DNA from: a virus
IMG/VR virus record: IMGVR_UViG_3300020205_000094
Location: 1 to 47,754 of that record
Length of the DNA: 47,754 bases
Strand: one strand, 5' to 3'
Shown: piece after piece, positions 17,070 through 47,754 of the stretch
Numbering within the stretch: the first letter of the stretch is position 1
Layout: each line of letters starts with the position of its first letter
The notes under the pieces: generated by a model
Database searches by the model: none
Told to the model about the DNA's origin: nothing
The model's input: the letters and a program-made list of their open reading frames with translations, nothing else
Made by a program: the position numbers and the translations under genes

Positions 17070-20000
17070 TTATACTTTATTCTTGTCCGGCAACAGAGCG
17101 TAAGTTGATCTAATAAACTTAGCTGGGTCAGACCCAGAATCAGCTAAACCAATACCCTCTGTAGACCATGCTTGACCTACACGCTTTTGAACTACAATAT
17201 ACTGCCCTGCTTCGGGTACTTCAGTTAAACGAATCTGCATCGGCTGTTGATTACCTGCGGCCGTTACTGAAAATTCAGCTTCGTATGCTACATCACCGCT
17301 TGGACTATCTGGCCCTATATTTGGATTCCAAATAGTGTATGAAGTCTTGCGTAATCTACGGCCTGCTACAAATACTTCTACATCATTACACTGATTATAT
17401 GCTGACGGTATAGTTTTTCTATACCACGTATTGTCTGCAACAGGTACAGTCAGTTTAAAGTCTAATTGTATCTTTAGATACTTAATTCCCTTAGAAATTA
17501 CTCTACTAGTCGGTGTTTGATTATTAATATTGAATATTAGTGATCCAATCGTATTTACACTAGTAGCTGTAACTGTAAATGTAGTCAAGCTATTAATAGA
17601 CGTAATAATCGCCAATGTACCAAAGTTTCCGGCACCAGAAACTTTGCTAACAATTTGTCCTACTTGTAATCCGCTTGTATTATTAGGAATTGTTAATCCA
17701 TTTTTTACATAAGAACCAGTTAATGTAACAGTAGACACTAATCCCGCAGTATTAACAGTACCAGCAATAGTTATAGTTTTTACGTCTTCTGCTCCAGTAA
17801 ACTGTATAGTTCCATATACGTTTGCTGTGGTCGATTTAATAGTGATTTGTGTATTACTATTAACTTCGGTAATTATAGTATAGCCGCCAATTGATCCATC
17901 ACCACTTATTTTAGTTAAGACCATACCGGCACGGAATATACTGTTAGCATTTGATAGTCCAGTTATTGTAGTAGTTAGGCTCGCGGCTGTTACTATTCCA
18001 GTAGCTGACACTGTTGTAAATTGTGGTAATGAAGTAATTGCAGGATTATATATTACTAAATCATATGCTCCAACTGATTTAGCCGGTGTTATAAAAGTCA
18101 ATGTTGTATTGCTTAGTCTGTTAACTACGCATTCAACATCTCCAACAAAGACCTTGACATTAATTTTAAATCCAATTCCTGTAACTGTTACTGTTTGACT
18201 GCCGGATAAGTCTGCTGTTTGATCTTCTCCAGGGAAAGTCACTGATGTTATTATTAGCTCAGGAGAGTTAACATAGATGCTAGAGCCATTAGTGTATCCG
18301 TCTGATACTGTTACCGATGAAATAAATTCATCTTTATACGGAACAGTTTGAACAATACTCTGATCTCTTACTAGAGTACCTTCAGCATGTACTGTCTTAA
18401 CCCCAGTTCCTAATGTTCCACGTTTTAGTTGTCGAATAATATTGCCTTCTTTTCTTAAATATTCAATGCGTTCGCCATCAATGAATACTACTCCAGGTTT
18501 ATTTAATCTAGCACTTGGTTCAGGCAACGCCGAGCCGTCAACTAATTCTATAACATTGTCATAATAATTTAATGTTTTAGATAGTGTAGTAGAAGATGAG
18601 TCGTCGATTCTTAAATATGTGTTTTTATTCAACATGTCTTTAAATATTTTATAACCAAAACTGTTTCGTGTTATTTTATTACTAAATGCAATTACATCTA
18701 TAATACTTGGTGCTAAGGAGACTTCCTCTACTAAGAGACTGCCCCAAGGACACAATCTCAATCCTGGCAAAAATGCTCCGCCGGCATCTGCTAAATTTTC
18801 TTCAGTATATTCAAAAGTTGCATCACAGACTTCCATTGCAACTTCAAAAAAATCAATAGTATCAGGGTCGTAATGATAGCCGTAATTTGGATTGTAATCT
18901 ACTGTGCTTTTTATAATCAAGCCAGTAAGGTGGAGTTTAGGAACAATATTGTTTAGTTGATCTCTGGCATTTTGAATTTTTTCTGGGTCTGTTAATTTAA
19001 TTACAAAATCGTTACGCCCGACGCCGTCTGTTACTCTAAAATAAGCTATGCTAGGAGTGGGACTAGGCGTCGGCACAAGTGTCGGTGTAAAACTAATGTA
19101 ATTCATGTTGCTTTCTAACGCATAGTCAACATTGGGTGTTAGTAGTTTTCTGTTTAAAGTGATCCAAACATACTGAGAACCAATAGCCGGTCTACGTAAC
19201 TTAATTCTACCACCCGATAACTGATTAAATCTGTAATACTCTTTTGCGCCAGCTACTAGTGTCGAAGCTGAGGACGTTTTATCGTGCTCACGCTCAATTT
19301 CAAGTATATCGTGATTACTAAAAGTAATTACAGTAATTACTGTGTTAGCAGTATAATCTCCTAGCAACTCAACAGATAAGTTACCGTCTACGGAAATTAT
19401 ATTATAATCAGAATTTGCAACTATTGATAATGAAATTTTATCTCCAGTTGTTGCAACGCCTTTTTTAACTTTGAGTTGATTGTTCACTGGAAACCAAAAA
19501 TAGTCAATACCTTGCACAATGTTTACACCGTTAACTGCAACAATGACTGTGCTACTATCTACAGTGTTAAATGCGTATCTTGAACTGTCAATAGTATATG
19601 TTCTACTTGCGCCTGCTACTATAAAATAGAAAGTATCTGGTGGTCTTAAAACACTGCCTTCAGTTACTACTAATACATTATTAGATAGAGGTTTAATAAA
19701 TTCAGGGTTACGAGTTAACGGATAGCTTGTGTCGATACCATTATGTATAATTGTTTGTTTTTGTACCTTACTAATAGAGTCGACTGCTGATCCTAAAATT
19801 GTATAGTTAATGATTGAATTAGCAGGCGGTGCAGTATCAAAACGTATTCCAATAGTACCAACTAAAGTATATTGACTAGTTGTTTTAAAAGTTGTTACGT
19901 TCGCGGCATCGCCATTAATAGTAACAAATGCAGTGGGTTCACTTGCCCATCTAGCAGTTGATATAAATTCAGTAGTAGTTCCGTCGCCAATAAAATAATC

Positions 20001-23000
20001 CAAATCTAAGATGTTTAGACCGTTTTGACTGATACTGGTTATAACAACTTCTAAGCCCGGTGCATAATTAGTAATTAATTCAATTTGTTGGTCAGCAAAA
20101 TTAACTGTATAATTTACATCTTGTTTGATAATATTTCCGTTAACTTTTACAATAACCGAAGTTGAAGTTCCAGGACGTTGGCCAATATCAAATACACTAC
20201 TAGCAGGGGCATAGTTATTGCTAGCAATAGTTACTGGAAAACCAGTAGAGTTTGCTGGCCAAATCCCTGTTAATGTGTAGATGTTAGTTCCGGCCTGCGG
20301 CCCACTAATACTGCCAATAACTACATTACTCGGTCCGCCATTAAAGCTAAGACGATAATTACCGGGATTAGCTATAATAGCAGACGCCCAACTTGGATTA
20401 GGAATACCAACTGTTAATGAGTTTTCTTGTACAGTGTAACCGCCTGGGCCGTTGCTCGGTGCTGTATAACTAAATCCAACGTCACCTGTAGTTAGATAAC
20501 GTACTGTTTCAATTACAGGAGCACCGTCACCAATTTTATGATAGACTGTGATATCAACTGTATCCACGACCTGTCCTGTTACTACTTCTTCCGGAGCATA
20601 GCTCGATGTTGTAGTAACAAATCCGTCGCCGTCGACGTTGATATCTTCTGCCGCTAATCCAGTAGCACTTACATAAGCAAAGTCGCCGCCAAATAATTGA
20701 GTATCGTAGGTAATATCACTAGGTTTAAAGCTGCCGTCGCTGGTATTCTTTCTTAATATAATACTATCACCGGCTTGGATGTCTATACCAAATGCTGTGG
20801 TAAATGTTGAATTATTAGGTATCACAATTGGTCCGGTACTTGTACCGTTGCCAATAAAGGAATTCATAATAGCATCTTGATTTACAATACTTGGAAAATT
20901 CTCAATTTCATGTTGTACAGTATTAACTTTTCCGTTAAGGGTAACTGTAGCTCCGGGAGTTATTGTACCAGCGGTTGTTACAACATCGAATCTATTGTTT
21001 CCAGTAGCCAATGCTTTAGCATACGTACTTGTTAAACGCACACTAGTACTGTTAATAATTTCGCCAATGTAGTAAGTGGTGCCGGAAACATATCCCTGAA
21101 TAGAACCATTGCTTAATGTTCCAGTTATTCTAATACTTTGTCCAACTAATCTTAGACCATTTGGCAGTATCAATCTTCCAAAGATATCAAATATTTGTAC
21201 AGAAGCAATAGTACTTGTTCCTTCGTATGCGGCTAGTTGACTAGCACCAGTAGATATTAGAGCAATTGCATTATCTCTAGCAAGCTGTGAGGTAACTGCA
21301 TTTTGTTGGGCAACAATATAAGCCGAATTTAAATCATCGTAAATTGCCTGTTTAGCATCTTTTACTTCTTGCGCTTGATCTATTATTGGTTGATTGCCGA
21401 GAATAATTGCGGCATCCAACGCAAGTTGAGCTTGAAGCAATATTGCCTCGGCCGCAGTTCTAGCATCAAATAGTACATCAAGCTGACGTGTTAGATCTGC
21501 AAGCAATACAATGTTAAAATCTTTGTCTTCTTGGGCAGTTGCTAACCCATTTGCAATAGCTATTTTTTCATTTTTAACAGCAATTAGTTTGTCAAGCAAC
21601 GGTTTAACTGTGATATAATTTGGATCGTCTAGTCGTCTATTAAACGTTTCTGTTGTTCTAAACGAGTATACTCCAGACGCTGTCTGTACTAGTGCTTTAG
21701 TTAATGTTATTTTTGCGCCGACAATATCCGATACAATAGTATTTGATTGTATACCAATTCCTAAAACCAACTGTCCTTTTTTAATTCCGTTAGCATTAGT
21801 AACAAATAAAGACGAACTATCAACAGATCCGGTGCCTAATGGTGTTGCAGTAATGTAACTTCTATTGCCAGTCCAGTATACGTTAATATATTCTATTTCC
21901 GTAGGAGCATAGTTTAAAGTAAATGATCTAGCAATGCCGTCACTCTTAATTAAGAAGTCTGTAAAGTCTGGATCAAACTGATCGTAGCCTGTAGTAAACC
22001 AAGGTAATGCATCATATCCAGATCCTACATCAAAACCAATACCGGTAATTTCTACACCACCGTAATCAACGCCCTGCATTAATTGACCAAGATCTTTACC
22101 CAGTTGGCCAGCTTTAGGATTATAAAAATAATTGATTCTATCGGCCGCATTTAATAAGTTAATATTTTTGTAGTATTCAATTACAACTTTAGATAAGTTT
22201 GATGGCGCTAAATTAAATTGTAATATTCCCCTATATCGAGTATAAGAATAGCTATTATCAATTTCGTTGAATACTATATAATCAGCTCCTAAAATTTCTC
22301 CGTTGTTATCAGATACTGTAGTACGTGTTTTAATAACATCAATTGGCCAAGCTAATTCAAATCTAGTTTTAGATCCGCTAGCAATAAATGTTTCTTTAGA
22401 TACTATTGACCCGAATGTATATTCAGACGATACTCTATCAAATTTAATACCAATCTTTGTTGATCGTACTAGACTGTTAGATAATATTGCCACTGCTCTA
22501 GCAGGAGTGCCGCTATCAGCAAGTGATCCTTCTATTCTGATAGTAGGAGTTACTAAGAAATTTTCTTTGAACGGATCGCTAATAACAATAGTAGAAATTC
22601 TACCAGATGATAGATATGCCTTAGCAGTAATAGTAGCAGGTGCTGGTTCAATTGTTATAATAGGAGCAGTTACGTAACCCGATCCGCCATCTACTATTCG
22701 TATTTCTGTTAAATTGAATCCAACACTATATAACCAATCACTATATGGATATTGTTTAATGTCATTACTACTGTATGTCAGTATACCATCTGAAATACTA
22801 GTTTGAAAAGGTATTACTGTATTAGTAGTCTGGTCGTATTTTGGAGGTAAATCAAAGTCAGATACCTGACTGCCTGTTGGTTCAACAATTTCGTAGGTGC
22901 TAACAAACTCACGAATTTTACTTCTATAAGGTTTAGCCTCATTGATATATTCTTGATAGCTAGGTAAGTTATCGTTTTGATATGTGGGTTTTTGTTTTAA

Positions 23001-26000
23001 CGGACCAAGGTTATGTTTTGATCGTACAAAACTTGTTTTAAATGCCCAGTCAATAAATTTTTGTTCGCTGAATGCATATCTTAAACTAGCAAAGAATAAG
23101 TCTTTATATGCAGTTGCTAAATTGTCAACAAAAATTACATTTTTAATTGTATCAAGAATAACTGTTAATTCTGCCTTTGGCTGGTCATCGAACACATACG
23201 AATCAAAGGTTGGGCCGTCAAATCCTTCTGCATTATCTGCAAAGCGATATAGATTATCAGTAAATTTAATTGTTCCAGATTGTCGCCCAACAGTTTTGTA
23301 ATTAACTGTTGTTTCAAGAACATCTTGATTATCAATTTTTTCTAATAGTACCCATCCGCCGATCCCTTGATTATTAACTTTTACTATTTCGCCAATTTCA
23401 ATACTGGCGCTAGGTAGTTGATATGCAAAATCAAGTATATGATCTAGTTTAGTAAACTCACTATATCCTGCAGAATACCAGTCAATATATTTCCAATAAC
23501 GAGTAGTATCATATGTTTGTGTGCGTTCTCTAAACCAAGATTTCTTTAAAGAATTCCAGGTATATAATGCCCATCTATTATTTGCAGTTTCATCTGAGAT
23601 AACTAGAACAGATAGTGTGCGTACAGATAACGTAGTTGAGTCAAGGTATCCGCTGCCTGGCTTATCAACTACTGCTGAAATAATCTGGCCTTTTAATCCA
23701 AGTATAGTGGTAATCTTTGCGCCACTGCCTATTCCATTAATTGTAACTTCGGGAGGATTAATATATCCTTTACCCGAAGTTAATATATTAACTCTAACAA
23801 GTTTTCCGTTTTCAATTACAGGAGATAGCACTGCTCTGACTATCTCGTTTGTTCCTACAAATCTAATCTGACTGTAAGAACTAATTTCATAGTCGTATTT
23901 TCCTGAACCTAAACTCGGCGCTTCATCTTTAGAATTTAAGCTAGTAAGATCAACATCATCTATTATAGACTGCGTTGCCATTACAGAATTAACACGTTCA
24001 ATAAACTGTTTAAGTGCTTCGACTCTATTAACAAACATGCTTTGTCTTGGTCGACTCTGGATACCGTATTTTAATTTTACTGGAAGTTTTGCATCAGGAA
24101 CTTCGTTGCCTAACTTATCAAATCCTGATAAACTGTCAATCCACTTTTGTTCAACATACTGATTAATTGGTTTATCAATATCACTTGTAGATAATAATTG
24201 ATAATGGCTGTGTATATTTGATTGTTCAAAATTATCAATAATCCAATAACGAACATTTAACGATACTTTTCTGCTGGCAATTAAATCTTTACAATTAACT
24301 AACGAGAACTGATCTGCTCCGTGGAACGATATGTAGCTAACTCCCATATTTTTAGGACTGCTAATATAGTTTGCAACATCTCTGGCAGAAACTAGCCTAC
24401 CGTCTATATTAGGTACTGTGACTTTATTTTTAACCCAGAAGTAATATATGTTTTTAAATGTTTTACTAATTGTATCAAATGTTTTGCTAATACTATAGGC
24501 GGTACTGCCGTATTTGCTAGTACCACTAATGCCAAGAGTTAATCCTGCTTCAGTGTCGGCTAATTTGTCCCACTCTGACGGAGTGTATTCGCTTTGAACC
24601 CATTCGTATATACTTACTAATTGATTTTCAAATAGCGTATTCCAAGAGTTGGCTTTATATAATATAGGGCCTTGATTAGGATCAATAAACTTGGCACTAC
24701 TTAAATCCCACCATAATTGTCCAACTTGTTTTTCTTTCCAACTCATTAGTGTGTCTACTACTACGGTGTCGTTCCCAATAGTATAAGTTGCAGGATCGTA
24801 GTATGTTTTAAACTTTAATTCATTTTCAGCAATACTTAAGATCTTACCCTGTAGAGGATCTACGATATCAAGATATGTAATTATACTACTATCTTCAATG
24901 TCGTATAAGAATACAGATTTAATTTTATCTATATTAACTAATTGACTAGGAGTTCTAAATTTATACCAAGATTTATTTTCAGAATAAAATTCATGAACTG
25001 CGCCAGTCAGTATATTGTAATCACTAATGTACACTCTGTCAGACATAGCAATAGAAGATCCGTAATTAGATCCAACTGCATCACCAACATCTAAACTGTC
25101 AGAGAAAATAAATTTATTTTCGTAGTAATCATATAACATTACACTACCCGATCCTAATTCAGTTTCTAAAAACGTAGTAGCATCTAGGTCAAAAACAGTC
25201 TTATTGTTATCAAATTGTGTACGGGCCAATTGACGTCCGCCAGCACTGGCAATTGCTAACTGATCCCCAACTGTATTAAATTTAACAGTTGAACCAAAAT
25301 ACTCACTGCCTCTATTATAAGGGTTACTCAATTTTTCTCTAAGTACATATAGTCCAGGAGTGTATGCTTCTTTGACATTAACTACTAGAGTAGCCGTTGC
25401 GTCATCATATGACGTTACAACACCGACCATATAATTAGATAAATCGCGTGTGATCGTAACACCTTGTAAATCTAAAATGTTTAAAGGTTTTGGAATAGTT
25501 ACAGTTGATGGGTTAGAATTGTAATTTATACCTCTAGTTAATAATTCGCCGGCAACAACTGCTCCAGTAGTTGGGTTAACTTGTGTAACTTTGTAAGTTG
25601 CTTTGCCGTCACCACCTGAGATAAAAACAATATCATTTACTGCGTAGTTAGTTCCTGCATTAGCAATTACCGGATTTGCTCGCAGGGTGCCAAAAGTTGC
25701 AACTACATTTAATAGCAACCCGGTTCCGCTCTTTCTTACTGTAAAAGTTTTTATTCCAGGTTCAATTGTTATTTGGGTCACACTAGAAGTTGTTACTCCA
25801 GGTAACACAACTGTCCATGTGTTAAATGCAGAAGGAATATTATAGTATACTTCAACTGCTCCTTCATTTAGATGAGTATTAGAATATGTTGGGGCTCCAA
25901 TCGCCAGTTTGCCACCATCTTTAGATACTGCAATAGTAGAACCAAAATTTGACTTTGCTGGTAATGTAGATTCTATAGTTTGTACGGCTTTATTAAATTC

Positions 26001-29000
26001 GTAATTATTAGAATAGTTCCATACACGAATTTTATCATTTCCGTTAATTGAATCATCACTAAAAGAAAGGATAACATTGCCGTTGGCAGCTACTGACATA
26101 TCTTTTAGCTTAAGACCTGCCGCAAACTCAGCAGTGAATACTACAGGAGATCCAACTGTTGCGCTACTGCTAACAAAGGTTGCATCGAGAGCATTTGCTA
26201 CAAGTTTTGAAATGTAATATACAGTCAACGAAGGCGCAACAGTTACAGAGCCTCTTGACGCTACAAATAATTTATCACCAACTATTGCTACCTTGTGTCC
26301 AAAAAATTGATTGTTTGTTTTAGTAGGTGCTGTTACTAGATTTGAAAATACGTAATATCCGTTAGCGTTACGAGTGTATAAGACAACATATCCGTGATTA
26401 GCATATACTGGCATTGCTCCAGCACGATTTTCTAATACAAATACTTCTCCACCAGGAGTAGAAGATATTGTAAAACGTATTGGGTCTATAATTTGTGACA
26501 CATAATATGTCCTGCCAGCAACTATAGTGCCAAGTGCAGTATTTAAAAAGACAATTGGACCGTTAAGAATAAAATTAGCAGTAGTTCCTGCTGATAAAAT
26601 TAATCTATTACCGGTTGATGTTGTTGAGCCTACAACCAAGGGTGCGGCATTTGCGGCTGGTGCGCCTGCGGCCAGATAAAGACCATCGCCTCTGACAGAT
26701 GTCGACGAGGCAAATGAATTATTTGTTAACAGTATTGTTGGGTTAGGATTATTAGCATCCTGTGTAGTAACTGGACTTAGCTCTTCTCTATATGCCCAGT
26801 TAGATTTGGCAGTAGGTCTAGTATAATATAGCATACTGTTTTCTATTGAAACTATCATCACGGTACTAACTTCATTTACAGATACACTAATACCAAAATG
26901 TGATTTGTTATTAGCAACTGTTGTTAGATTATAGCTGTTTTGATATTTCCAAACTGCCCATTGATTATCAGTACCATCTACCCACACTAGGTCGCCGTCT
27001 TTCTTAGCGGCTATTCCTAAATTATTAATAATCTCGATCGACGGTACTCGTACTGATACAAACTTATATAAATTTAAAGTTAGATCAACAGTATCTGCGG
27101 TGTTAAGCAATTTTGGTTTATCAAATTCGATGTAGTCTACACCAACCGCAGTAACTTTATAAAATCCTTCTAGCGTTGCTATAGTGTTGTTAACACCAAC
27201 GTAGCTGCCAACTGCAATATCAGTATCAACAACTCTGTTTAATGTAATTCGAATAGTGTTTTGTATAATTGCAAATTTTCTAATTAAATTTTCAAATAGT
27301 GTAAAACGATAAACATTCCAAGTATTTTTATCACTAGCAGTCCAGAAATAGTATCCGTCGTTTAGTTTGTTTATATCAACAGACAATATCTCGTCTATAG
27401 TGTTTAATTTGTATTCAACATCTTCAGAGTTAACGTACCCAGCAGTCGATACATAGTAATTCGGTAACTGATGAGTTTCAAATGGTGAGTGCGAATATGT
27501 CTTACTTTTTAGGTAAACTTGGTCGGGTAAAATTCTATAAACGAAATCTATTAATGAATTATCAATAGATTTCACTAATTCCACCGGTTGTGGATTAATT
27601 AAGAACTTAACTTCATCTAGTCTAAACTCAACTTCATCGAATCCTGCATTAGAGCCGTATTGACCTATGCGAATAGCCCATTCTTCGTAAAATTCTAAAC
27701 TTTCTTTAGTGCTAGTGCTTAATGCATCAAACAATTTAGCAAAACTATTTTCTGTTCCCTTTTCAGTTATAAATCCTTGATAAAACTTGTATTGACTTAC
27801 ATCGTCATTAATAATGTTTTCAAGGTACTGGCGCTTTTGATAACCGATAAGATGCTGTGCAAATTTTTGTTGGTCTAAATCAAAGCTGTCAGTATCTAAG
27901 TCATAGAAGTCAGGGAATTGGTTAGCTCGATAATCCCAGTTAGGAATTAACTTAGGTTGGGGTCTAGCTTCTAACTTATTCCACTCCGAATAACTGAATT
28001 GTTCGCTGCCGGGAACATTAGTTTTTGCGCTGTAATAAAATTCTTTGTACTTAACAGTATCACCTAATTTATAATCAGTCCAAACTTTCCAAAGTTTAAC
28101 TATTGCACGGTCGTAAATGAATCCTGGAATATCAAAGTCTCCATTCCAGTTAGTTGTCCTATAGCCAACTACTTTGATACGTTCTTGTCTATATCCCTGT
28201 ACTTGATCATATATGATATCATTGAATATAGTATTATTATCTAAAATAAGAACATGTTCTTTTTGTACTAAATTTAAAGTAACATGGTAAATGCCGTCAG
28301 CAGTATTTTTAGGAGATAGTGTGAATAAGTTTCCTTCTCTAGTATTACCTGTGTACAATGAAGACAGGGCCGCGCCATCTTGTTTTAACACTGAATACTC
28401 ATAAAAACTGTCGTATATGTTATCAACTACTGAATATTGTTGACTAAATTTAACTTCTTCGGCACACGGGCTTACACTTATTACTGCGCCGGCTGACCAG
28501 TTTTGAGTAGTCCAGAATGCAAATTCTTTTGCGCTAGTTTGAAAATCAGTTATTGTTCTAATAGTAGGATTAAAATTTTCAAACAGTACGCCTATTGATT
28601 TTAAATATGCGCCGTAACCTAATAGAAAGTCAACTACTTCTTGAATAGTTCTTAATTCAGCACCGTAATGCAGTGTGGAAATAGTGTCTTCAAATTTTGT
28701 TCTAATAATAATTTGTCTACCACCTGTTAACGGCAATGATGGTAACTTAGCAAAATATTTAATTTCAAATACTGCTGATGCTTGATGTGACACTGTTGTT
28801 CTATAATATTGATTATTAAAAAATATAATCTTATCTTTAGTGTAATACTGATTAGCAGTCCAATTAGTAAAGCTGGCAGATACACCGCCTATATTGATTT
28901 CAGCATCGTGATTAATTATTAAAGGTTTCAAATATTTAAATGCAGGAAGAAATTTATTATATCCTCTAATAACAAAGCCAGTTGTTGCTTTTTCTATAAT

Positions 29001-32000
29001 TACTGCGCTGTAGTCAATAGATAATACTGGACTGCTAGTGTTAAGAATTATATTATAATTTTCTTCTGGTATAAAAACATTGCCAGTGTTTAGCGGATTG
29101 CGACTATCAAGAATTAATTTAAATTTTTCTTTAGTAGTAAATCCGCCAAGTTTACTTGATAGGCGAACTATTAGATTTGTTAATTCATTTTTGTAAACTG
29201 GAATTTCTGAAAGAGATTGTCTTCCAATAATATAATCAGTGATGTAATTTACTAGCCCAGCAGTATGCACTCTAGATGCACTATCTGATGTGCTAGGTGT
29301 AATTAAATTAGCAACATTGAATCTTAAATTTCCTCCATCTACTTTATAAACTAATTGTCCAGTATCGTCTCTATATTGTCGAGTACGGTCAAAACAACTG
29401 GAGAATACCTGAGAAGGTCTTAATATAGTTAATGCTGTTATTAAAGAGAATGGATACTCTGCACTACGTCTCCATGCAGATTCGATCGGTGCTTGGTCTC
29501 CGAATCTAAATTTACCTTCAATTAATGATGAAGTATAACCGTCGATGATTCCAATATCGCTAGGGGCCAGTAACTCGCCGTCTTCATTTATAGGCAACAT
29601 TGATAACAGATGAGGTCTTACAAATTTAAAATTTTTAACAACATTAGTATTAGGAGCTCTAACTATACCATTAGCTAGGTCATTCCATAAAATTAAATTG
29701 TTACTAGTGTATGGGGCAGGACCGTACTCAGTTTCCCACCAGGTTGGTTTAATACTAAATCCTAACATTTCCCACGGATGTGTGTGCGGACGGTCAGTGT
29801 CGTATACTAATTTGAATATACCTCTCCAAAATCCTGGAAGTTCTGTGCCAGTTGATGATCTAAATTCTCTGTAATTATAAGTTTTTGGATTACTACGTAC
29901 AAAGAAAGAATGCTTAGTATAGTCGTCAGCTATTAGATTTGACCAATGCAAGAAGTCTCCTGCCATGATGAGATTAAGATCAGCAAATGATACGTCAGTA
30001 GTTCTGTTATATCCAGGAATAAAATCATAGATATCAAATAGACTAGTATCATATGTAACTTTAATATTATTGTAAATCCTACGTTCAAATTCTAATAATA
30101 AGTCATCTCTAAAATCATTAAATGCCACAGTAATACTACCGTCGTGACCTTGAATAACTTTAGTTGGAGTTTGATACGTAGTATCAATAAAAATTTGCGG
30201 CACAAATTTAGGATACAGTCCGTACTTTGTCGGTGTCGGTGGTAAGAAACATCCATCTGTTTTTTCATATTGCACAATTTTTAAATTGTCGCCGGAAGCA
30301 ATTGTTGATAAGATTTTTACAAAATTAACGTCAACAAATTCATAATCACTACCGTGTATTAACAATTCGTCGTTTACATATACTAGTACAGCATGTTCTC
30401 TAACAGTGGTAAGATCAAAGTCAAAAGTCAACGGATATTCAGTAATAGAGTCGTCAATTATTTCTTGCTCGAAAATAAAACTAGGGCCTGCAGGTAACAT
30501 GTCGCTTAGATAATACGGGCTAGCATTTGTAAAGTCTTTAACTATTTCTTTTAAAATTAAATCTAGATGGATTCGTGTTACACCGTCATATCCGTAATCA
30601 GTTGCTTTACGTAGTAAGTTTCTTTTAAATTTTGCATAATCAAGTCTAGCTGTTTTTAATGCATTAATTACATTATAATTTTTGCTAGTAATGTGATATG
30701 CGATAGGTAACAGCGGCGCGGCGTGTTGAACAATTTTTGTTCCCAGCGGCGTAATGTTTCCTAAATCACGAAGGCTTGCAGATCCAGGAACTGTTCCTAT
30801 AAATGAATCAATGTTGTCTGCAATTGAACTTACATGGTTGTTGATTTCGCCTAAGGTAAATGTATCTAAGTTTAAGTTTTGAGGATTATGTTCTAAGTTA
30901 GATGGAAATTCATAATACCCATTAATTTTTGGTGATGTAGAAGTTGTTTTAACTATCAACACATCGTCAATAACTAAATCTTTAAAGAATTCAACATAGG
31001 CTTGATTGTTAATAATACTAATTGTATAGTCAGTGTTATATTTTCTTTGGCCGTTTACATACACCTTGACTGTTAAGTCAGTTAATAAACCACTATCTGC
31101 ATATGCATCAATTAAGAACATATTACGTACTTGGTCAATTAGATATTGTCTAACAACAAATTGTTTAGTTTTTGTACTAGCAATAGACCATCCGTTGGCA
31201 TGATCAAACGAAGTTAATGTATTATTAAGTCGTAGGTAACCTAATTCGATATTAATCGGTGCTGTTAAATTTGCATTACTTTGATAGGTATGTTTGTCAG
31301 TATGAAGATTAAAATTAAAAACAATATCGCCAAAGTTGCCAATATTCCTATATGAAATATTAAAATTTAATTCATCATCGTAGGAGGTGCCTGGTTGATA
31401 ACTGAATAATTTTGTTCCGCTAAATGTAGTACCAGGATACTTTGTTGTGTTTCCATAACTTATTCCAGTAGGGTCTACTACTTCAAATAAGGGACTTTGA
31501 TTGACCTTATTTTTAGTCTGACTCTGTATCCAGGTGCCATCCATGTAATGGAACATTGATCCTCTATAACTGCGTCCCTCTGTTACTAAAACAGCTTCGC
31601 CATCTTGTGGATCAGTATCAGCTGTAGGCAATAGTGTGATTCTACGTTGCCCTAGATGAGTGACAAAACTTATTGTAAATATTCTACCAGAAACTCTAAC
31701 GTCAGTATCTGCTGTAAATAACACACGCATGCCTTCAACTAGATTAATGTTATCAACATTATAACCGTAGCTACCTTCAATTGTAGAAAATACATCTGTA
31801 GTAAAGGTGTCAACTAATGTTACGTTCTGTTTGGCAATACGACCAAAATTCCATAATTGAATGTTTGAATTAAATTCAATAATTGGGCGCTTGGCTCTTG
31901 CTGTTTGATCTAATATTAATGGTTGATTGTTTGCTGTTGCAGATGCTTCAATTAAATTTTTGTGGAACCAGCGATTATGGCGGCTCCACGGATTTCGATC

Positions 32001-33185
32001 ATTGCTTCCTCTATTAATAACTAGATAATCTTTATTTGCTGGGAAGTTAGTGTTTACATCAAATCCCTGTGTATCAAAATTTTCATTATCAAATTCAACT
32101 TCTAAGTCAGAAGTGTACAAAGACGGTGTTTCAAGATCTTTCTCTGCTACTAAGATAATTGCTGTACCGACGCCTTCAACGTACCAATTACCAGTTGAGT
32201 ATATTTCCGGAGTCACTTGTCCAGGAAATGACAGTTTCATTCCGTTAGATAACGTAGTTCCGCTACTAGTAGTATAATATTTTTTACCGATAATTTCAGT
32301 GTCAACTTCTATATAAGTCGATTCAGTAATATCAAAAATTGTAAAATATCCCGAGGTGTTTATATCAGTTTCGCTAACGTAATATAAAATATTAGGAGCA
32401 TTTAACGGTACTGTAAACTCAATAGAACCTTTTTTAACATGTGAAGTAGAGGAAATAATTGTATTTTTATCATCTCTTATTGTGATGCCGGACGTATATA
32501 AGTCTGCATCTCCTATAGTTCTAACTGTCTTAAATGCAAATGGACGGTCTTCACAGTCTATTTCAAAGATATATGTCTGTCCGCGATATAATTTAAATTT
32601 AGGATTTGCCGTTAACCCGTCAGGAGTAAACAAATAAGAAATATTGTCAACTTGATTAACTAATTTAACAGTATACGTACTATTAATATCTGCTGACTGT
32701 CCTAAAACTGTAATGGGTTGAGGACCGTTTGGTAACCAGTAGTATTCTCTATAGTTAACAAATTTATCCCAATCAATGTTGGGATTCCACGCATAAAATT
32801 CTTCGCTATTAACTTTACTATGATCTAAGGTAGTGCCTGCAAAGAAATTTAATTGATTAATATAATCATTATAATCTTTAAAAAATGTAACATTATCTAA
32901 AGAGTCTTTAGAAATGATAGCTGGCTCAAGTTGATACGCGGCTCTGTCAACACTGACCTCTTCTAGATATCTGTCTGTTGATGTGAATGCAGGTGTATTT
33001 TTACGACCAATAAAAGCGTTTACTTTCCCAACAGTTCCCTCGTTGATCATTTGATCAACGGTAGCACTTAAGAACTTTTGATTAGCAGAAGTTCTATAAT
33101 ACTTGGGTAGAAAATCTAATGACGTCCTTTTATTATTGTCGCCAATAGGTAACGCTGATTCTTGTTGGTTGTTATCGAATGCCAT
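17070..33185 (-). CDS. giant virion structural protein (5371 residues), baseplate/tail region
   Basis: One uninterrupted 16.1-kb gene starting 15 bases after gene 6, with an AAGGAA ribosome site. The N-terminal ~170 residues (LPKYYRTSANQKFLSATVDQ, then YNDYINQLNFF and YYWLPNGPQPI) match a class of very large structural proteins that I recall after gene 6 in T4-like marine phages. Visible regions: CBM5/12-like patches near residues 1450 and 1710; FG-GAP-like repeats at about 2150-2730 (for example FGSTIAVSKDGGKLAIGAP); GSGY...PP repeats near 2500-2560, 3130-3180 and 3495-3565; a coiled coil at 3855-3985; and an IPT/TIG-like domain at about 4970-5050. No genes for T4 gp7, gp8 or gp10 follow, so it may cover part of their role. 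It is a structural protein by context; the exact role is unknown. Confidence 0.85.
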   Translation of the reverse strand: MAFDNNQQESALPIGDNNKRTSLDFLPKYYRTSANQKFLSATVDQMINEGTVGKVNAFIGRKNTPAFTSTDRYLEEVSVDRAAYQLEPAIISKDSLDNVTFFKDYNDYINQLNFFAGTTLDHSKVNSEEFYAWNPNIDWDKFVNYREYYWLPNGPQPITVLGQSADINSTYTVKLVNQVDNISYLFTPDGLTANPKFKLYRGQTYIFEIDCEDRPFAFKTVRTIGDADLYTSGITIRDDKNTIISSTSHVKKGSIEFTVPLNAPNILYYVSETDINTSGYFTIFDITESTYIEVDTEIIGKKYYTTSSGTTLSNGMKLSFPGQVTPEIYSTGNWYVEGVGTAIILVAEKDLETPSLYTSDLEVEFDNENFDTQGFDVNTNFPANKDYLVINRGSNDRNPWSRHNRWFHKNLIEASATANNQPLILDQTARAKRPIIEFNSNIQLWNFGRIAKQNVTLVDTFTTDVFSTIEGSYGYNVDNINLVEGMRVLFTADTDVRVSGRIFTISFVTHLGQRRITLLPTADTDPQDGEAVLVTEGRSYRGSMFHYMDGTWIQSQTKNKVNQSPLFEVVDPTGISYGNTTKYPGTTFSGTKLFSYQPGTSYDDELNFNISYRNIGNFGDIVFNFNLHTDKHTYQSNANLTAPINIELGYLRLNNTLTSFDHANGWSIASTKTKQFVVRQYLIDQVRNMFLIDAYADSGLLTDLTVKVYVNGQRKYNTDYTISIINNQAYVEFFKDLVIDDVLIVKTTSTSPKINGYYEFPSNLEHNPQNLNLDTFTLGEINNHVSSIADNIDSFIGTVPGSASLRDLGNITPLGTKIVQHAAPLLPIAYHITSKNYNVINALKTARLDYAKFKRNLLRKATDYGYDGVTRIHLDLILKEIVKDFTNASPYYLSDMLPAGPSFIFEQEIIDDSITEYPLTFDFDLTTVREHAVLVYVNDELLIHGSDYEFVDVNFVKILSTIASGDNLKIVQYEKTDGCFLPPTPTKYGLYPKFVPQIFIDTTYQTPTKVIQGHDGSITVAFNDFRDDLLLEFERRIYNNIKVTYDTSLFDIYDFIPGYNRTTDVSFADLNLIMAGDFLHWSNLIADDYTKHSFFVRSNPKTYNYREFRSSTGTELPGFWRGIFKLVYDTDRPHTHPWEMLGFSIKPTWWETEYGPAPYTSNNLILWNDLANGIVRAPNTNVVKNFKFVRPHLLSMLPINEDGELLAPSDIGIIDGYTSSLIEGKFRFGDQAPIESAWRRSAEYPFSLITALTILRPSQVFSSCFDRTRQYRDDTGQLVYKVDGGNLRFNVANLITPSTSDSASRVHTAGLVNYITDYIIGRQSLSEIPVYKNELTNLIVRLSSKLGGFTTKEKFKLILDSRNPLNTGNVFIPEENYNIILNTSSPVLSIDYSAVIIEKATTGFVIRGYNKFLPAFKYLKPLIINHDAEINIGGVSASFTNWTANQYYTKDKIIFFNNQYYRTTVSHQASAVFEIKYFAKLPSLPLTGGRQIIIRTKFEDTISTLHYGAELRTIQEVVDFLLGYGAYLKSIGVLFENFNPTIRTITDFQTSAKEFAFWTTQNWSAGAVISVSPCAEEVKFSQQYSVVDNIYDSFYEYSVLKQDGAALSSLYTGNTREGNLFTLSPKNTADGIYHVTLNLVQKEHVLILDNNTIFNDIIYDQVQGYRQERIKVVGYRTTNWNGDFDIPGFIYDRAIVKLWKVWTDYKLGDTVKYKEFYYSAKTNVPGSEQFSYSEWNKLEARPQPKLIPNWDYRANQFPDFYDLDTDSFDLDQQKFAQHLIGYQKRQYLENIINDDVSQYKFYQGFITEKGTENSFAKLFDALSTSTKESLEFYEEWAIRIGQYGSNAGFDEVEFRLDEVKFLINPQPVELVKSIDNSLIDFVYRILPDQVYLKSKTYSHSPFETHQLPNYYVSTAGYVNSEDVEYKLNTIDEILSVDINKLNDGYYFWTASDKNTWNVYRFTLFENLIRKFAIIQNTIRITLNRVVDTDIAVGSYVGVNNTIATLEGFYKVTAVGVDYIEFDKPKLLNTADTVDLTLNLYKFVSVRVPSIEIINNLGIAAKKDGDLVWVDGTDNQWAVWKYQNSYNLTTVANNKSHFGISVSVNEVSTVMIVSIENSMLYYTRPTAKSNWAYREELSPVTTQDANNPNPTILLTNNSFASSTSVRGDGLYLAAGAPAANAAPLVVGSTTSTGNRLILSAGTTANFILNGPIVFLNTALGTIVAGRTYYVSQIIDPIRFTISSTPGGEVFVLENRAGAMPVYANHGYVVLYTRNANGYYVFSNLVTAPTKTNNQFFGHKVAIVGDKLFVASRGSVTVAPSLTVYYISKLVANALDATFVSSSATVGSPVVFTAEFAAGLKLKDMSVAANGNVILSFSDDSINGNDKIRVWNYSNNYEFNKAVQTIESTLPAKSNFGSTIAVSKDGGKLAIGAPTYSNTHLNEGAVEVYYNIPSAFNTWTVVLPGVTTSSVTQITIEPGIKTFTVRKSGTGLLLNVVATFGTLRANPVIANAGTNYAVNDIVFISGGDGKATYKVTQVNPTTGAVVAGELLTRGINYNSNPSTVTIPKPLNILDLQGVTITRDLSNYMVGVVTSYDDATATLVVNVKEAYTPGLYVLREKLSNPYNRGSEYFGSTVKFNTVGDQLAIASAGGRQLARTQFDNNKTVFDLDATTFLETELGSGSVMLYDYYENKFIFSDSLDVGDAVGSNYGSSIAMSDRVYISDYNILTGAVHEFYSENKSWYKFRTPSQLVNIDKIKSVFLYDIEDSSIITYLDIVDPLQGKILSIAENELKFKTYYDPATYTIGNDTVVVDTLMSWKEKQVGQLWWDLSSAKFIDPNQGPILYKANSWNTLFENQLVSIYEWVQSEYTPSEWDKLADTEAGLTLGISGTSKYGSTAYSISKTFDTISKTFKNIYYFWVKNKVTVPNIDGRLVSARDVANYISSPKNMGVSYISFHGADQFSLVNCKDLIASRKVSLNVRYWIIDNFEQSNIHSHYQLLSTSDIDKPINQYVEQKWIDSLSGFDKLGNEVPDAKLPVKLKYGIQSRPRQSMFVNRVEALKQFIERVNSVMATQSIIDDVDLTSLNSKDEAPSLGSGKYDYEISSYSQIRFVGTNEIVRAVLSPVIENGKLVRVNILTSGKGYINPPEVTINGIGSGAKITTILGLKGQIISAVVDKPGSGYLDSTTLSVRTLSVLVISDETANNRWALYTWNSLKKSWFRERTQTYDTTRYWKYIDWYSAGYSEFTKLDHILDFAYQLPSASIEIGEIVKVNNQGIGGWVLLEKIDNQDVLETTVNYKTVGRQSGTIKFTDNLYRFADNAEGFDGPTFDSYVFDDQPKAELTVILDTIKNVIFVDNLATAYKDLFFASLRYAFSEQKFIDWAFKTSFVRSKHNLGPLKQKPTYQNDNLPSYQEYINEAKPYRSKIREFVSTYEIVEPTGSQVSDFDLPPKYDQTTNTVIPFQTSISDGILTYSSNDIKQYPYSDWLYSVGFNLTEIRIVDGGSGYVTAPIITIEPAPATITAKAYLSSGRISTIVISDPFKENFLVTPTIRIEGSLADSGTPARAVAILSNSLVRSTKIGIKFDRVSSEYTFGSIVSKETFIASGSKTRFELAWPIDVIKTRTTVSDNNGEILGADYIVFNEIDNSYSYTRYRGILQFNLAPSNLSKVVIEYYKNINLLNAADRINYFYNPKAGQLGKDLGQLMQGVDYGGVEITGIGFDVGSGYDALPWFTTGYDQFDPDFTDFLIKSDGIARSFTLNYAPTEIEYINVYWTGNRSYITATPLGTGSVDSSSLFVTNANGIKKGQLVLGIGIQSNTIVSDIVGAKITLTKALVQTASGVYSFRTTETFNRRLDDPNYITVKPLLDKLIAVKNEKIAIANGLATAQEDKDFNIVLLADLTRQLDVLFDARTAAEAILLQAQLALDAAIILGNQPIIDQAQEVKDAKQAIYDDLNSAYIVAQQNAVTSQLARDNAIALISTGASQLAAYEGTSTIASVQIFDIFGRLILPNGLRLVGQSIRITGTLSNGSIQGYVSGTTYYIGEIINSTSVRLTSTYAKALATGNNRFDVVTTAGTITPGATVTLNGKVNTVQHEIENFPSIVNQDAIMNSFIGNGTSTGPIVIPNNSTFTTAFGIDIQAGDSIILRKNTSDGSFKPSDITYDTQLFGGDFAYVSATGLAAEDINVDGDGFVTTTSSYAPEEVVTGQVVDTVDITVYHKIGDGAPVIETVRYLTTGDVGFSYTAPSNGPGGYTVQENSLTVGIPNPSWASAIIANPGNYRLSFNGGPSNVVIGSISGPQAGTNIYTLTGIWPANSTGFPVTIASNNYAPASSVFDIGQRPGTSTSVIVKVNGNIIKQDVNYTVNFADQQIELITNYAPGLEVVITSISQNGLNILDLDYFIGDGTTTEFISTARWASEPTAFVTINGDAANVTTFKTTSQYTLVGTIGIRFDTAPPANSIINYTILGSAVDSISKVQKQTIIHNGIDTSYPLTRNPEFIKPLSNNVLVVTEGSVLRPPDTFYFIVAGASRTYTIDSSRYAFNTVDSSTVIVAVNGVNIVQGIDYFWFPVNNQLKVKKGVATTGDKISLSIVANSDYNIISVDGNLSVELLGDYTANTVITVITFSNHDILEIEREHDKTSSASTLVAGAKEYYRFNQLSGGRIKLRRPAIGSQYVWITLNRKLLTPNVDYALESNMNYISFTPTLVPTPSPTPSIAYFRVTDGVGRNDFVIKLTDPEKIQNARDQLNNIVPKLHLTGLIIKSTVDYNPNYGYHYDPDTIDFFEVAMEVCDATFEYTEENLADAGGAFLPGLRLCPWGSLLVEEVSLAPSIIDVIAFSNKITRNSFGYKIFKDMLNKNTYLRIDDSSSTTLSKTLNYYDNVIELVDGSALPEPSARLNKPGVVFIDGERIEYLRKEGNIIRQLKRGTLGTGVKTVHAEGTLVRDQSIVQTVPYKDEFISSVTVSDGYTNGSSIYVNSPELIITSVTFPGEDQTADLSGSQTVTVTGIGFKINVKVFVGDVECVVNRLSNTTLTFITPAKSVGAYDLVIYNPAITSLPQFTTVSATGIVTAASLTTTITGLSNANSIFRAGMVLTKISGDGSIGGYTIITEVNSNTQITIKSTTANVYGTIQFTGAEDVKTITIAGTVNTAGLVSTVTLTGSYVKNGLTIPNNTSGLQVGQIVSKVSGAGNFGTLAIITSINSLTTFTVTATSVNTIGSLIFNINNQTPTSRVISKGIKYLKIQLDFKLTVPVADNTWYRKTIPSAYNQCNDVEVFVAGRRLRKTSYTIWNPNIGPDSPSGDVAYEAEFSVTAAGNQQPMQIRLTEVPEAGQYIVVQKRVGQAWSTEGIGLADSGSDPAKFIRSTYALLPDKNKV

Positions 33186-46540: not shown

Positions 46541-46763
46541 TATTGATACCCACGAGCTATTAATTAGAGAGTTCATGGAGTACGCCAAATGGAGTACTCG
46601 ATTTGAGCTCCACGGTTATAAAGAAAGTGCTGTTAAGGCACGAGTAGCTCTAGGTGAGATACGAAGACTCATAATGACTAGGCGAGCAGAAATACAGGCA
46701 AAGAAAAATTTAATACACGGAATCCAAAACGACAGTGACGAAGAGGCTAGTGACGATAACTAG
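46533..46763 (+). CDS. small basic helical protein, weakly Hc1 histone-like
   Basis: A 76-residue protein starting at the ATG at 46533, 8 bases before the gp46 gene ends; an earlier in-frame ATG (46497) is buried in gene 46. It is helical with a basic middle (KARVALGEIRRLIMTRRAEIQAKK) and an acidic tail (DSDEEASDDN). The KARVALGEIRRL pattern recalls small histone-H1-like (Hc1-type) proteins annotated in cyanophages and bacteria, but the similarity is short. It could bind DNA alongside the gp46/47 complex. Function is not established. Confidence 0.65.
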   Translation: MSDIDTHELLIREFMEYAKWSTRFELHGYKESAVKARVALGEIRRLIMTRRAEIQAKKNLIHGIQNDSDEEASDDN

Positions 46764-46766
46764 TTG

Positions 46767-47195
46767 ATGCAATGGACTTATCAGAATACAATAGTAGAAG
46801 AACTACCCGAAACCTGCATTGGTTTTGTGTATCTGATAACAAATAACATCACTGGAAGAAAATATATAGGCAAAAAACTTGCGAAGTTCGCAAAAACGAC
46901 TTATAAAGTTGTTAAACTCAAGAACGGTACCAAGAAAAAGAAAAAGATTAGAAGCAAAATTGATTCAGACTGGCGTGACTATTATGGATCAAGCGATGCA
47001 CTAACCAAAGACGTAGAAACACTAGGCACAGACAACTTCTCCAGAGAAATACTTTTCTATTGCACATCAAAAGCAGAATGCTCATACATCGAGGCCCGAG
47101 AACAATTTACTCACAAAGTTCTAGAATCAGCAGATTACTATAACGGACACATTGCTGTTCGTGTACACGGCTCACATATCCTCAAAAAACCCTAG
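46767..47195 (+). CDS. GIY-YIG-like putative endonuclease
   Basis: A 142-residue basic protein with a degenerate GIY-YIG core: GFVYLITNNITGRKYIGKK at residues about 18-37, then the DWRDYYGSSDAL segment and a conserved glutamate in SYIEAREQF, followed by YYNGHIAVRV. Phages carry many free-standing proteins of this kind, often annotated as Seg-like or putative homing endonucleases. A lysine-rich insertion (KNGTKKKKKIRSK) sits between the motifs. ATG at 46767 is the likely start; TTG at 46764 is possible. The ribosome site is weak. It is followed directly by the non-coding structured region. Confidence 0.78.
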   Translation: MQWTYQNTIVEELPETCIGFVYLITNNITGRKYIGKKLAKFAKTTYKVVKLKNGTKKKKKIRSKIDSDWRDYYGSSDALTKDVETLGTDNFSREILFYCTSKAECSYIEAREQFTHKVLESADYYNGHIAVRVHGSHILKKP

Positions 47196-47518
47196 GCAAC
47201 ACAAGCGGAAATAGCAAGCGTCAGCTAACATCGGACGCCCGTATACCTGGATCTCGGATCGCAGGGAGGGAAACAACTCTAGCCGCCAGAGTGCTCAGCA
47301 ACTATCCTTAACAGGACGACGATCGCTAATGCCGCGGTTTTGCTGTTATAAAATTTAAGGCAAGAAAGAAGGGAGAAATACCCTACGTGTGTACGTATGT
47401 TAGCGTATATTTGCACACCGCCGTTGTGATAAAGACTCTGCTCGTGGTACCGGACAACCGCCACTGTAACGCAGTAACGCTAGTGTGACATGTTCAACTC
47501 AGATAATGTCGTTTTAAT

Positions 47519-47539
47519 CTTTGCCCTGCCTGGGCAAAG
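47519..47539 (+). other. perfect 8-bp GC-rich hairpin
   Basis: CTTTGCCC (47519-47526) pairs with GGGCAAAG (47532-47539) around a 5-base loop. No T-run follows on the plus strand, so it is more likely an RNA domain than a terminator. Confidence 0.6.
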
Positions 47540-47637
47540 TGTGACTGAACAATCTAGATAATATCTTAAGTGCTTCGCACTAAATTATAAGTACATAATA
47601 AGAAAGAAGAAGAATAGTGTGAGCGAAAGCGAAACAC

Positions 47638-47656
47638 AGATGAACGTAGTTCATCT
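47638..47656 (+). other. perfect 8-bp hairpin before the late promoter
   Basis: AGATGAAC (47638-47645) pairs with GTTCATCT (47649-47656) around a GTA loop. It lies 13 bases before the late promoter at 47670 and may mark the 3' end of the structured RNA. Confidence 0.55.
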
Positions 47657-47669
47657 ACATGCATCCCGA

Positions 47670-47677
47670 TATAAATA
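47670..47677 (+). promoter_or_regulatory. consensus T4 late promoter (TATAAATA)
   Basis: TATAAATA is the exact T4 late -10 consensus. It stands 24 bases before the ATG at 47702, with TTAGGA between as ribosome site, so the gene beginning at 47702 is probably late and possibly structural. Confidence 0.78.
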
Positions 47678-47701
47678 TACTAACTGCTTAGGAATACGAT
47701 T

Positions 47702-47754
47702 ATGAAGCTATACGAAGTTCTATTAGAAGATAAAAAACAAGTACAAGAAGCACC
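47702..47754 (+). CDS. start of a late gene, truncated by the window end
   Basis: Only the first 17 codons are visible, beginning MKLYEVLLEDKKQVQEA. The start is well supported by TAGGA 7-10 bases upstream and an exact TATAAATA late promoter. Too little is present to assign a family. The late promoter suggests a capsid, tail or packaging protein. Confidence 0.6.
   Translation, partial: MKLYEVLLEDKKQVQEA

Follow-up and report, generated by a model that had tools for sequence, protein, structure and literature searches.

The window analysed here is the whole of IMG/VR virus record IMGVR_UViG_3300020205_000094 (47,754 bases), probably a fragment of a phage genome, and homology and covariation confirm, at the level of sequence, that its one long gene-free gap holds a conserved structured non-coding RNA. 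This RNA does not constitute a wholly new class: by alignment, it is a longer variant of the RF01718 (Polynucleobacter-1) kind, whose 3′ two thirds are not covered by Rfam. With a probability of roughly 0.53, we propose that the locus represents a phage gene whose product is a trans-acting, structured + strand RNA of ~445 nt, which would serve as a scaffold or decoy and in which two equal seven-base words would be the sites of one partner.

The gap and its genomic setting

The gap (47196–47701) measures 506 nt and is bounded by the stop codon of a GIY-YIG gene (47195) and the following ATG (47702). Elsewhere in the window, the large ORFs are separated by at most 94 nt, in agreement with an earlier note on this DNA that had called the region the only gene-free stretch of over 300 bases. 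The ~54% G+C that the same note had given for the first 145 bases was likewise reproduced (54.5% vs. 37.3% window-wide). The genes around the RNA are T4-like and all on the + strand, i.e., a late sigma factor (phrog_12791), phrog_100, phrog_77 and a SegE-like GIY-YIG nuclease; the phrog_100 and phrog_77 matches represent gp47- and gp46-like nuclease subunits. Elsewhere, a single ORF of 5,371 aa (17070–33185, – strand) takes up about one third of the window. The RNA is framed by the following features:

46764–47195, + strand: SegE-like GIY-YIG nuclease gene, upstream neighbour (PF19835, E 7e-33; phrog_447, E 3e-38)
47670–47677, + strand: TATAAATA word ahead of the next gene (ATG 47702), the sole exact copy in the window on either strand

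We take TATAAATA at 47670 to be a T4-type late promoter word. A consensus scan of the + strand revealed neither an own promoter nor a U-tailed end of the RNA at the expected places, nor a sigma-70-type promoter where a weak –35/–10 pair (47152–47180) had been suspected. Moreover, no integrase family was found among the nine window proteins scanned, and tRNA genes were lacking from the window as well as from 25 of the 26 related loci scanned.

A known RNA family covers the 5′ domain

The sole Rfam match at gathering score across the whole window is 136 nt long:

47213–47348, + strand: 5′ domain, Rfam RF01718 Polynucleobacter-1, model positions 1–141 of 141 (90.5 bits against a gathering score of 37; E 3.9e-18)

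Since the alignment covers the whole model with no non-standard pair marked in the window, we regard the assignment of the 5′ domain to RF01718 as secure. In the available part of the discovery paper (Weinberg et al. 2010, PMC2864571), Polynucleobacter-1 is described as a short candidate, with a table row that reads 'y' for RNA, 'y' for cis-reg, '?' for switch, and 'Burkholderiales, fresh water/estuary'. Apart from this paper, none naming RF01718 was found in the literature searched, and the searches returned nothing further on this RNA. Window positions 47305 and 47317 inside RF01718 covary in a manner that is not of base-pairing type, as 63 sequences have T-C and 23 have C-T (E 0.000).

The earlier note had left undecided whether the region belonged to a known or a new class, and the answer is divided: the 5′ 136 nt are RF01718, and the 3′ two thirds fall outside Rfam. 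Its suggestion of GOLLD or ROOL received no Rfam match, and the other families that it had listed for checking (HEARO, tmRNA, group I) did not match either. Specifically, GOLLD, ROOL, HEARO and the group I intron yielded no match at gathering score in the window and none up to E 5 in 46700–47754, and ARAGORN found no tmRNA in the window.

Extent and fold of the RNA

In the alignment of the region after the GIY-YIG gene, conservation extends well past RF01718, and covariation persists for ~310 nt beyond the 141-position model. Covariation was assessed with our own script on 89 phage sequences (123 before dereplication; class-B loci, L116 and L134 left out), against a null in which the inferred substitutions of each column were placed randomly on the tree (40 null alignments). 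This tree-aware approach revealed 30 covarying pairs with E ≤0.15 over 47220–47655, of which 24 are of base-pairing type, three are equal-base couplings of repeated words, and three are neither. Together with the RF01718 match, these pairs bear out the proposal of a large structured RNA, and they delineate the following features:

47213–47656, + strand: whole structured RNA, ~445 nt, ends approximate (RF01718 match in the 5′ part plus covariation over 47220–47655)
47218–47238, + strand: hairpin 47218–47222/47234–47238, part of the RF01718 structure (47220–47236, AT 51, GC 20, E 0.050)
47296–47345, + strand: helix 47296–47301/47340–47345 enclosing hairpin 47322–47326/47334–47338 (five covarying pairs, i.e., 47298/47343, 47299/47342, 47300/47341, 47324/47336 and 47326/47334, E 0.000 each)
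47389–47416, + strand: long variable hairpin with UAGCG in the loop, outside RF01718 (five covarying pairs: 47391–47414, E 0.050; 47392–47413, 0.000; 47393–47412, 0.100; 47394–47411, 0.125; 47398–47407, 0.000)
47402–47481, + strand: proposed pseudoknot A, hairpin loop 47402–47406 with 47477–47481 (one pair, 47405–47478, GC 70, AT 17, E 0.125)
47423–47458, + strand: proposed pseudoknot B, 47423–47427 (GUUGU) with 47454–47458 (ACAAC) in GGUACCGGACAACCGCC (47425–47456, TA 54, CG 35, E 0.000)
47438–47474, + strand: helices 47438–47441/47471–47474 and 47444–47447/47461–47464 (covariation at 47438–47474 (CG 33, GC 33, TA 10, AT 5), 47439–47473 and 47440–47472, E 0.000 each, and at 47445–47463, E 0.050)
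47520–47538, + strand: hairpin UUUGCCC/GGGCAAA between two repeated words (pairs in the window; 76.3% of cells paired in alignment A2, with little covariation)
47569–47581, + strand: small hairpin AGUGC-UUC-GCACU (47570–47580, E 0.075, 69% standard pairs)
47617–47637, + strand: hairpin GUGU-GAGC-GAAA-GCGA-A-ACAC (GAGC...GCGA kept in phage and bacterial alignments)
47638–47656, + strand: terminal hairpin (47639–47655, 47641–47653, 47642–47652, 47643–47651 and 47644–47650, E 0.000 each)

The second alignment (A2) covers 47419–47562, outside RF01718, and comprises 44 sequences (60 before dereplication; class-B loci, L023, L028, L036, L041, L060, L071 and truncated contigs left out). Its covariation score of 0.263 was reached by none of 500 shuffles (0.095) and by no slid version (maximum 0.076), while its nine pairs changed on both sides and its 19 further pair types were equalled by 16 and 37 of the 500 shuffles, respectively. 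In the region of pseudoknot B, 98.5% and 92% of the cells are paired in helices 1 and 2 of A2. A lack of covariation among homologues had been named by the earlier note as grounds for abandoning its proposal; covariation was found in both the 89- and the 44-sequence set.

Both proposed pseudoknots fall outside RF01718, and they differ from the one previously envisaged. The latter had employed AGCAA at 47213–47217, but its presumed partner TTGCT (47340–47344) covaries with a second AGCAA (47297–47301) instead, and CCGC (47332–47335), its other element, overlaps the hairpin 47322–47326/47334–47338.

Strand, folding energy and coding potential

At 58 helix pairs, selected by Watson-Crick share alone, G-T cells exceeded A-C cells by 204 to 60. 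Per pair, 33 favoured G-T and 12 favoured A-C (p 0.0025 in a test that ignores shared ancestry; the count includes one pair, favouring A-C and with no window position, that was absent from the first per-pair count). The excess arises outside RF01718; the counts within it were 8 vs. 4 (8 vs. 5 with the extra pair) and non-significant. Because G-U thus exceeds A-C at helices, the + strand is favoured as the RNA strand, a conclusion that is supported but indirect.

The density of short hairpins, earlier read as a signal in itself, did not stand out. The minimum free energy of 47213–47660 gave z = –0.99 on the + strand, with 22 of 100 shuffles folding equally well, and z = –1.93 on the – strand, with 3 of 100 doing so. 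Single-sequence folding was therefore discarded as evidence, being not above chance on the + strand, and the case for an RNA is built on homology and covariation. The longest ORF in the region had a median of 38 codons among the 89 sequences, vs. 44 in one shuffle of each.

A seven-base word occurs twice

Within the 3′ part, the same seven-base word follows two different leaders:

47497–47507, + strand: copy 1, ACUC followed by AGAUAAU (47501–47507; identity to copy 2, same-base coupling)
47552–47562, + strand: copy 2, AUCU followed by AGAUAAU (47556–47562; identity to copy 1, same-base coupling)

Both copies read AGATAAT in the window DNA and flank the UUUGCCC/GGGCAAA hairpin. Same-base coupling, beyond the phylogenetic null, was found at 47496–47551, 47501–47556 and 47505–47560 (E 0.000 each). 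The identity of the words was examined further in all fetched loci, on both strands, by comparing the seven bases after each ACTC and ATCT lying 34–62 bases apart (2,013 pairs). Among the matches listed, 173 loci fit the pattern, with identical copies in 172 and six of seven bases equal in the remaining one; other ACTC–ATCT pairs at that spacing had 0–5 of the next seven bases in common, peaking at two, and since listing required at least 6/7 equal bases, less similar words would drop into this background. As many as 15 different words occur among the 173 loci (AGATAAT, GGATAAT, GGATGAT, GCATAAT, AACAAAA, AGCGAAA and others). The loci comprise 70 fetched via the GIY-YIG protein, 98 fetched by pattern (among the matches listed), four bacterial ones and the window, and are not independent, as certain contigs entered the set twice; the number of distinct phage contexts is 142.

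The GIY-YIG-fetched loci (best 80 of 580) had been chosen blind to the word. Seven of these contigs end early, and of the other 73, 69 carry equal words, one has a 6/7 match, and three (L023, L028 and L036) fall outside the ACTC/ATCT pattern; L028 still bears GGATAAT twice, and a repeated word was not found in L036.

The full seven-base complement of the word occurred inside the RNA in at most two of 151 regions per 10-nt bin (five-base pieces in up to 21), and flanking phage DNA showed no clear enrichment of the complement. The word itself gave no clear signal in ~1.2 Mb of phage flanks, with 138 observed vs. 108 expected on the RNA strand and 109 vs. 95 on the other, composition not being controlled in these expectations. 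The RNA probably presents a single recognition word in two places to the same partner, and because a complementary site was not found, this partner is likelier to be a protein than a nucleic acid.

Phage relatives and their neighbouring genes

Phage homologues were collected as the best 80 of 580 viral loci fetched with the GIY-YIG protein, and RF01718 was searched for in 49 whole records from these 80 loci, plus 16 loci. The family scored above cut-off in 40 of the 49 whole records. Of the nine misses, five carry another sequence at that place (L007, L039, L042, L043 and L049), two are contigs that stop early (L019 and L041) and one is divergent (L036); the ninth, L009, resembles RF01718 by eye but gave no candidate on first look. 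A pattern scan for the 3′ part revealed at least 120 further stretches. A model of the 3′ core (R1) was also built; since it holds only 10 base pairs, its matches rest mostly on sequence. Ten loci whose 5′ half differs were matched by R1 at 61–79 bits, and Rfam scans of nine of them gave no RF01718 match, so the 3′ core appears to be the more constant part among phages. L023, L028 and L036 were scored by R1 at only 32–38 bits. In four loci (L094, L097, L126 and L164), the same 3′ core is preceded by what looks by eye like yet another, third type of 5′ half.

This constant 3′ and exchangeable 5′ region, in a phage-borne, large and pseudoknotted RNA, recalls GOLLD as presented in the available part of PMC12286853, and would suit an RNA-only oligomer like GOLLD, ROOL or OLE, i.e., a cage or dimer with the equal words as symmetric contacts. 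We nevertheless regard such an oligomer as quite improbable, since none of the three matched via Rfam and since base-paired contacts would need complementary words, whereas the observed words are identical and their seven-base complement is as scarce as described above.

Neighbouring genes were surveyed in 99 oriented two-word loci, i.e., 98 found by pattern (among the matches listed; at least 12 of them on contigs already fetched via GIY-YIG) and the window. Among the matches listed, the GIY-YIG gene lies within 2.5 kb upstream in 88 of the 99, six are cut, and it is absent in the other five, i.e., in 5 of 93 assessable phage loci. In three of these five, another gene occupies that spot after the gp46-like ORF, judged by eye. 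Where GIY-YIG is missing, a gene with a GxSWE...GAY(I/V)GG motif precedes the RNA in L116 (3893–4423), L125 (3963–4484) and L147 (9348–9854); by eye, it is perhaps a nuclease of the Holliday-junction-resolvase type. In L011, L041, L054, L060 and L071, the GIY-YIG gene and the RNA are separated by an additional ORF (in which the L041 contig ends), and the spot therefore takes up genes.

Downstream, the next gene differs among phage loci in both presence and direction, at odds with the cis-regulatory position estimated for Polynucleobacter-1. A + strand ORF of at least 90 aa starts close to the RNA (at most 460 nt after copy 1) in 39 of 85 judgeable phage loci and in none of the other 46 (among the matches listed), and the next ORF is on the opposite strand in some loci, e.g., L045, L047 and L067. 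Where a + strand gene follows the RNA (from 47702 onwards in the window, and in many phage loci), its product typically starts like MKIYEIISE, and 60 of 70 N-termini fit M(K/R)xx(E/D)(I/L/V) (among the N-termini listed, a few of which repeat). Such starts resemble the leaders of the internal head proteins of T4, which target these proteins to the capsid and are cut by protease.

These neighbours bear on the reading of the RNA as a cis-regulatory leader or 3′ UTR that controls the gene before or after it, which we consider distinctly unlikely. Polynucleobacter-1 was marked as probably cis-regulatory in the available part of Weinberg et al. 2010 (PMC2864571), where 'cis-reg' is the authors' estimate and no criterion of the Rfam model. 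Consistent with such a role, the window gene begins 45 nt past the last hairpin of the RNA, and in 80 of 99 phage loci (among the matches listed) fewer than 450 nt separate the end of the GIY-YIG match from copy 1. However, the 46 loci with no suitable downstream ORF, the reversed next ORFs and the five loci devoid of GIY-YIG argue against it, as do the differing neighbours of the bacterial copies (see below) and the presumed T4-type late promoter word that separates the RNA from the next gene in the window.

Action in trans is instead favoured, because the next gene varies, the bacterial neighbours differ, and each of the five phage contigs checked yielded one strong match (one of them also a weak second, E 0.037); this support is indirect. 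As for wider relatives, blastn returned no DNA relatives among 50,697 phage records, and R1 had no match in the records of six named T4-like phages, so a cultured phage carrying the RNA was not found. The matches of a 14-base pattern scan of genome contigs look like chance.

Bacterial copies

Starting from the family of a Pandoraea genome, RF01718 was found above cut-off in 6 of 398 genomes. Within one genus of that family, 20 of 186 genomes contain it (19 above cut-off, the 20th below). In all 25 bacterial loci, a divergent DUF6641 gene (PF20346) adjoins the RNA, and in 19 of the 25 a small tyrosine recombinase gene lies on its other side. Both words are present in 23 of the 25 (20 identical, one with 6/7 and two with 5/7 equal bases), and the bacterial alignment was built from those 23 and two found via DUF6641 (25 copies, 24 after dereplication). 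By eye, the layout is as in phage: RF01718 part, long hairpin, two words, GAGC/GCGA hairpin and terminal hairpin. Moreover, the bacterial hairpin loop can pair downstream (CCACUU with AAGUGG, read from the alignment) at the site of pseudoknot A, and GUUUC/GAAAC replaces, by eye, the GUUGU/ACAAC of pseudoknot B. Since R1 had no match in the bacterial loci L322–L328, homology beyond RF01718 is argued here from layout and motifs.

The region of L368 contains two tyrosine recombinases (one of 430 aa) along with an AAA protein that resembles the clamp loaders of phages (phrog_168, E 1e-20; 27–29% identity among the 12 matches listed), and is the one region in which an integrase and a phage-like replication gene, our criterion for a satellite, occur together. 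The gene after the RNA in L366 resembles AbiEi. These contents suggest that the RNA-bearing bacterial regions may be a phage satellite or defence element, satellites proper being conjecture. No close relatives of the DUF6641 or the clamp-loader-like protein of L368 were found among IMG/VR contigs. In L365 and L366, PADLOC matched MTase_II, PDC-M33A/B, REase_II and AbiEi, i.e., restriction-modification or candidate defence genes. Near one bacterial copy, an ORF (L334 164–628, MKLDEIITADE) has a leader score of 10.6, whereas the best of 2,433 background ORFs reached 8.4; relatives of its protein do not score above background.

DUF6641 was considered and rejected as a partner common to phages and bacteria, as none of 17 large phage contigs contained it and it had no relative in IMG/VR or INPHARED, which leaves the phage and bacterial loci with no partner protein in common. 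Conversely, the link from DUF6641 to the RNA is loose: 18 DUF6641 loci were found in 11 of 300 genomes of the order, and a motif search revealed both words in two of these (L347 and L361) and only the terminal-type hairpin pair in L348, L352 and L364. Against PDB sequences, the best DUF6641 hit (E 0.13) was set aside, and no paper on DUF6641 was found in the literature searched.

Another reading is that of a DNA-level element. Iterons are repeated protein sites on DNA, and tyrosine recombinases need equal 7-bp overlaps. The gap might accordingly be a replication origin, packaging site or recombination site, with the seven-base words as protein sites and the RNA as a structured primer. Two equal, co-changing words would suit one DNA-binding protein, and the recombinase gene near 19 of 25 bacterial loci and the one strong match per phage contig checked would fit as well. 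We hold this to be unlikely, as the excess of G-U over A-C at helices indicates an RNA, the word is not clearly enriched in the ~1.2 Mb of flanks, and the nine window proteins scanned include no integrase family.

Proposed role

We thus return to the trans-acting scaffold or decoy as the preferred reading. RF01718 would form the 5′ third of this RNA, and the 3′ two thirds would fold with two pseudoknots and display the same seven-base word after ACUC and again after AUCU, the two copies flanking a hairpin. Serving most likely as a scaffold or decoy, the RNA would offer the two words as two binding sites of one partner. This partner would probably be a protein, bound as a dimer or as two copies, and as the specificity of this partner drifts, both word sites would change together. 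That the RNA is expressed during infection, and what kind of molecule the partner is, are put forward as conjecture.

A further-reaching idea, which we entertain as possible if rather unlikely, is that of a specificity RNA with two exchangeable words, common to lytic T4-like phages and to chromosomal elements that parasitise or resist them, with rival copies competing. The phage version (RGAURAU-type words) would then serve the phage, and the element version (AGCGAAA-type) would redirect or block the same machinery. RF01718 itself proves to form the 5′ end of a far larger RNA with a well-supported fold, which occurs in many uncultured T4-like phages and, judged by layout, also in mobile regions of bacteria. 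Two equal words that evolve together are an unusual rule and offer concrete mutants, and DUF6641 is a candidate partner on the bacterial side.

Comparison with known systems

The window RNA shares the full RF01718 model (47213–47348), which the bacterial copies have too. RF01718 ends at 141 positions, whereas the window RNA covaries further, and some phages keep the 3′ core in the absence of RF01718. GOLLD and ROOL are, like the window RNA, large structured phage RNAs, and GOLLD combines a conserved 3′ region with an exchangeable 5′ region (PMC12286853, available part). In size, however, the window RNA (~445 nt) differs from the ROOL RNA (659 nt) and from many of the GOLLD RNAs (>800 nt) described there. 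Its setting, beside recombination genes and devoid of tRNA, also differs from that of GOLLD and ROOL.

Finally, phage ICP1 and its satellite PLE each have an abundant non-coding RNA (PMC7567579, available part), a likeness that consists in a lytic phage and a chromosomal element each carrying a prominent RNA of this type. The ICP1 and PLE RNAs are not described as related in the available part of that paper, whereas the phage and bacterial RNAs compared here share both RF01718 and their layout.
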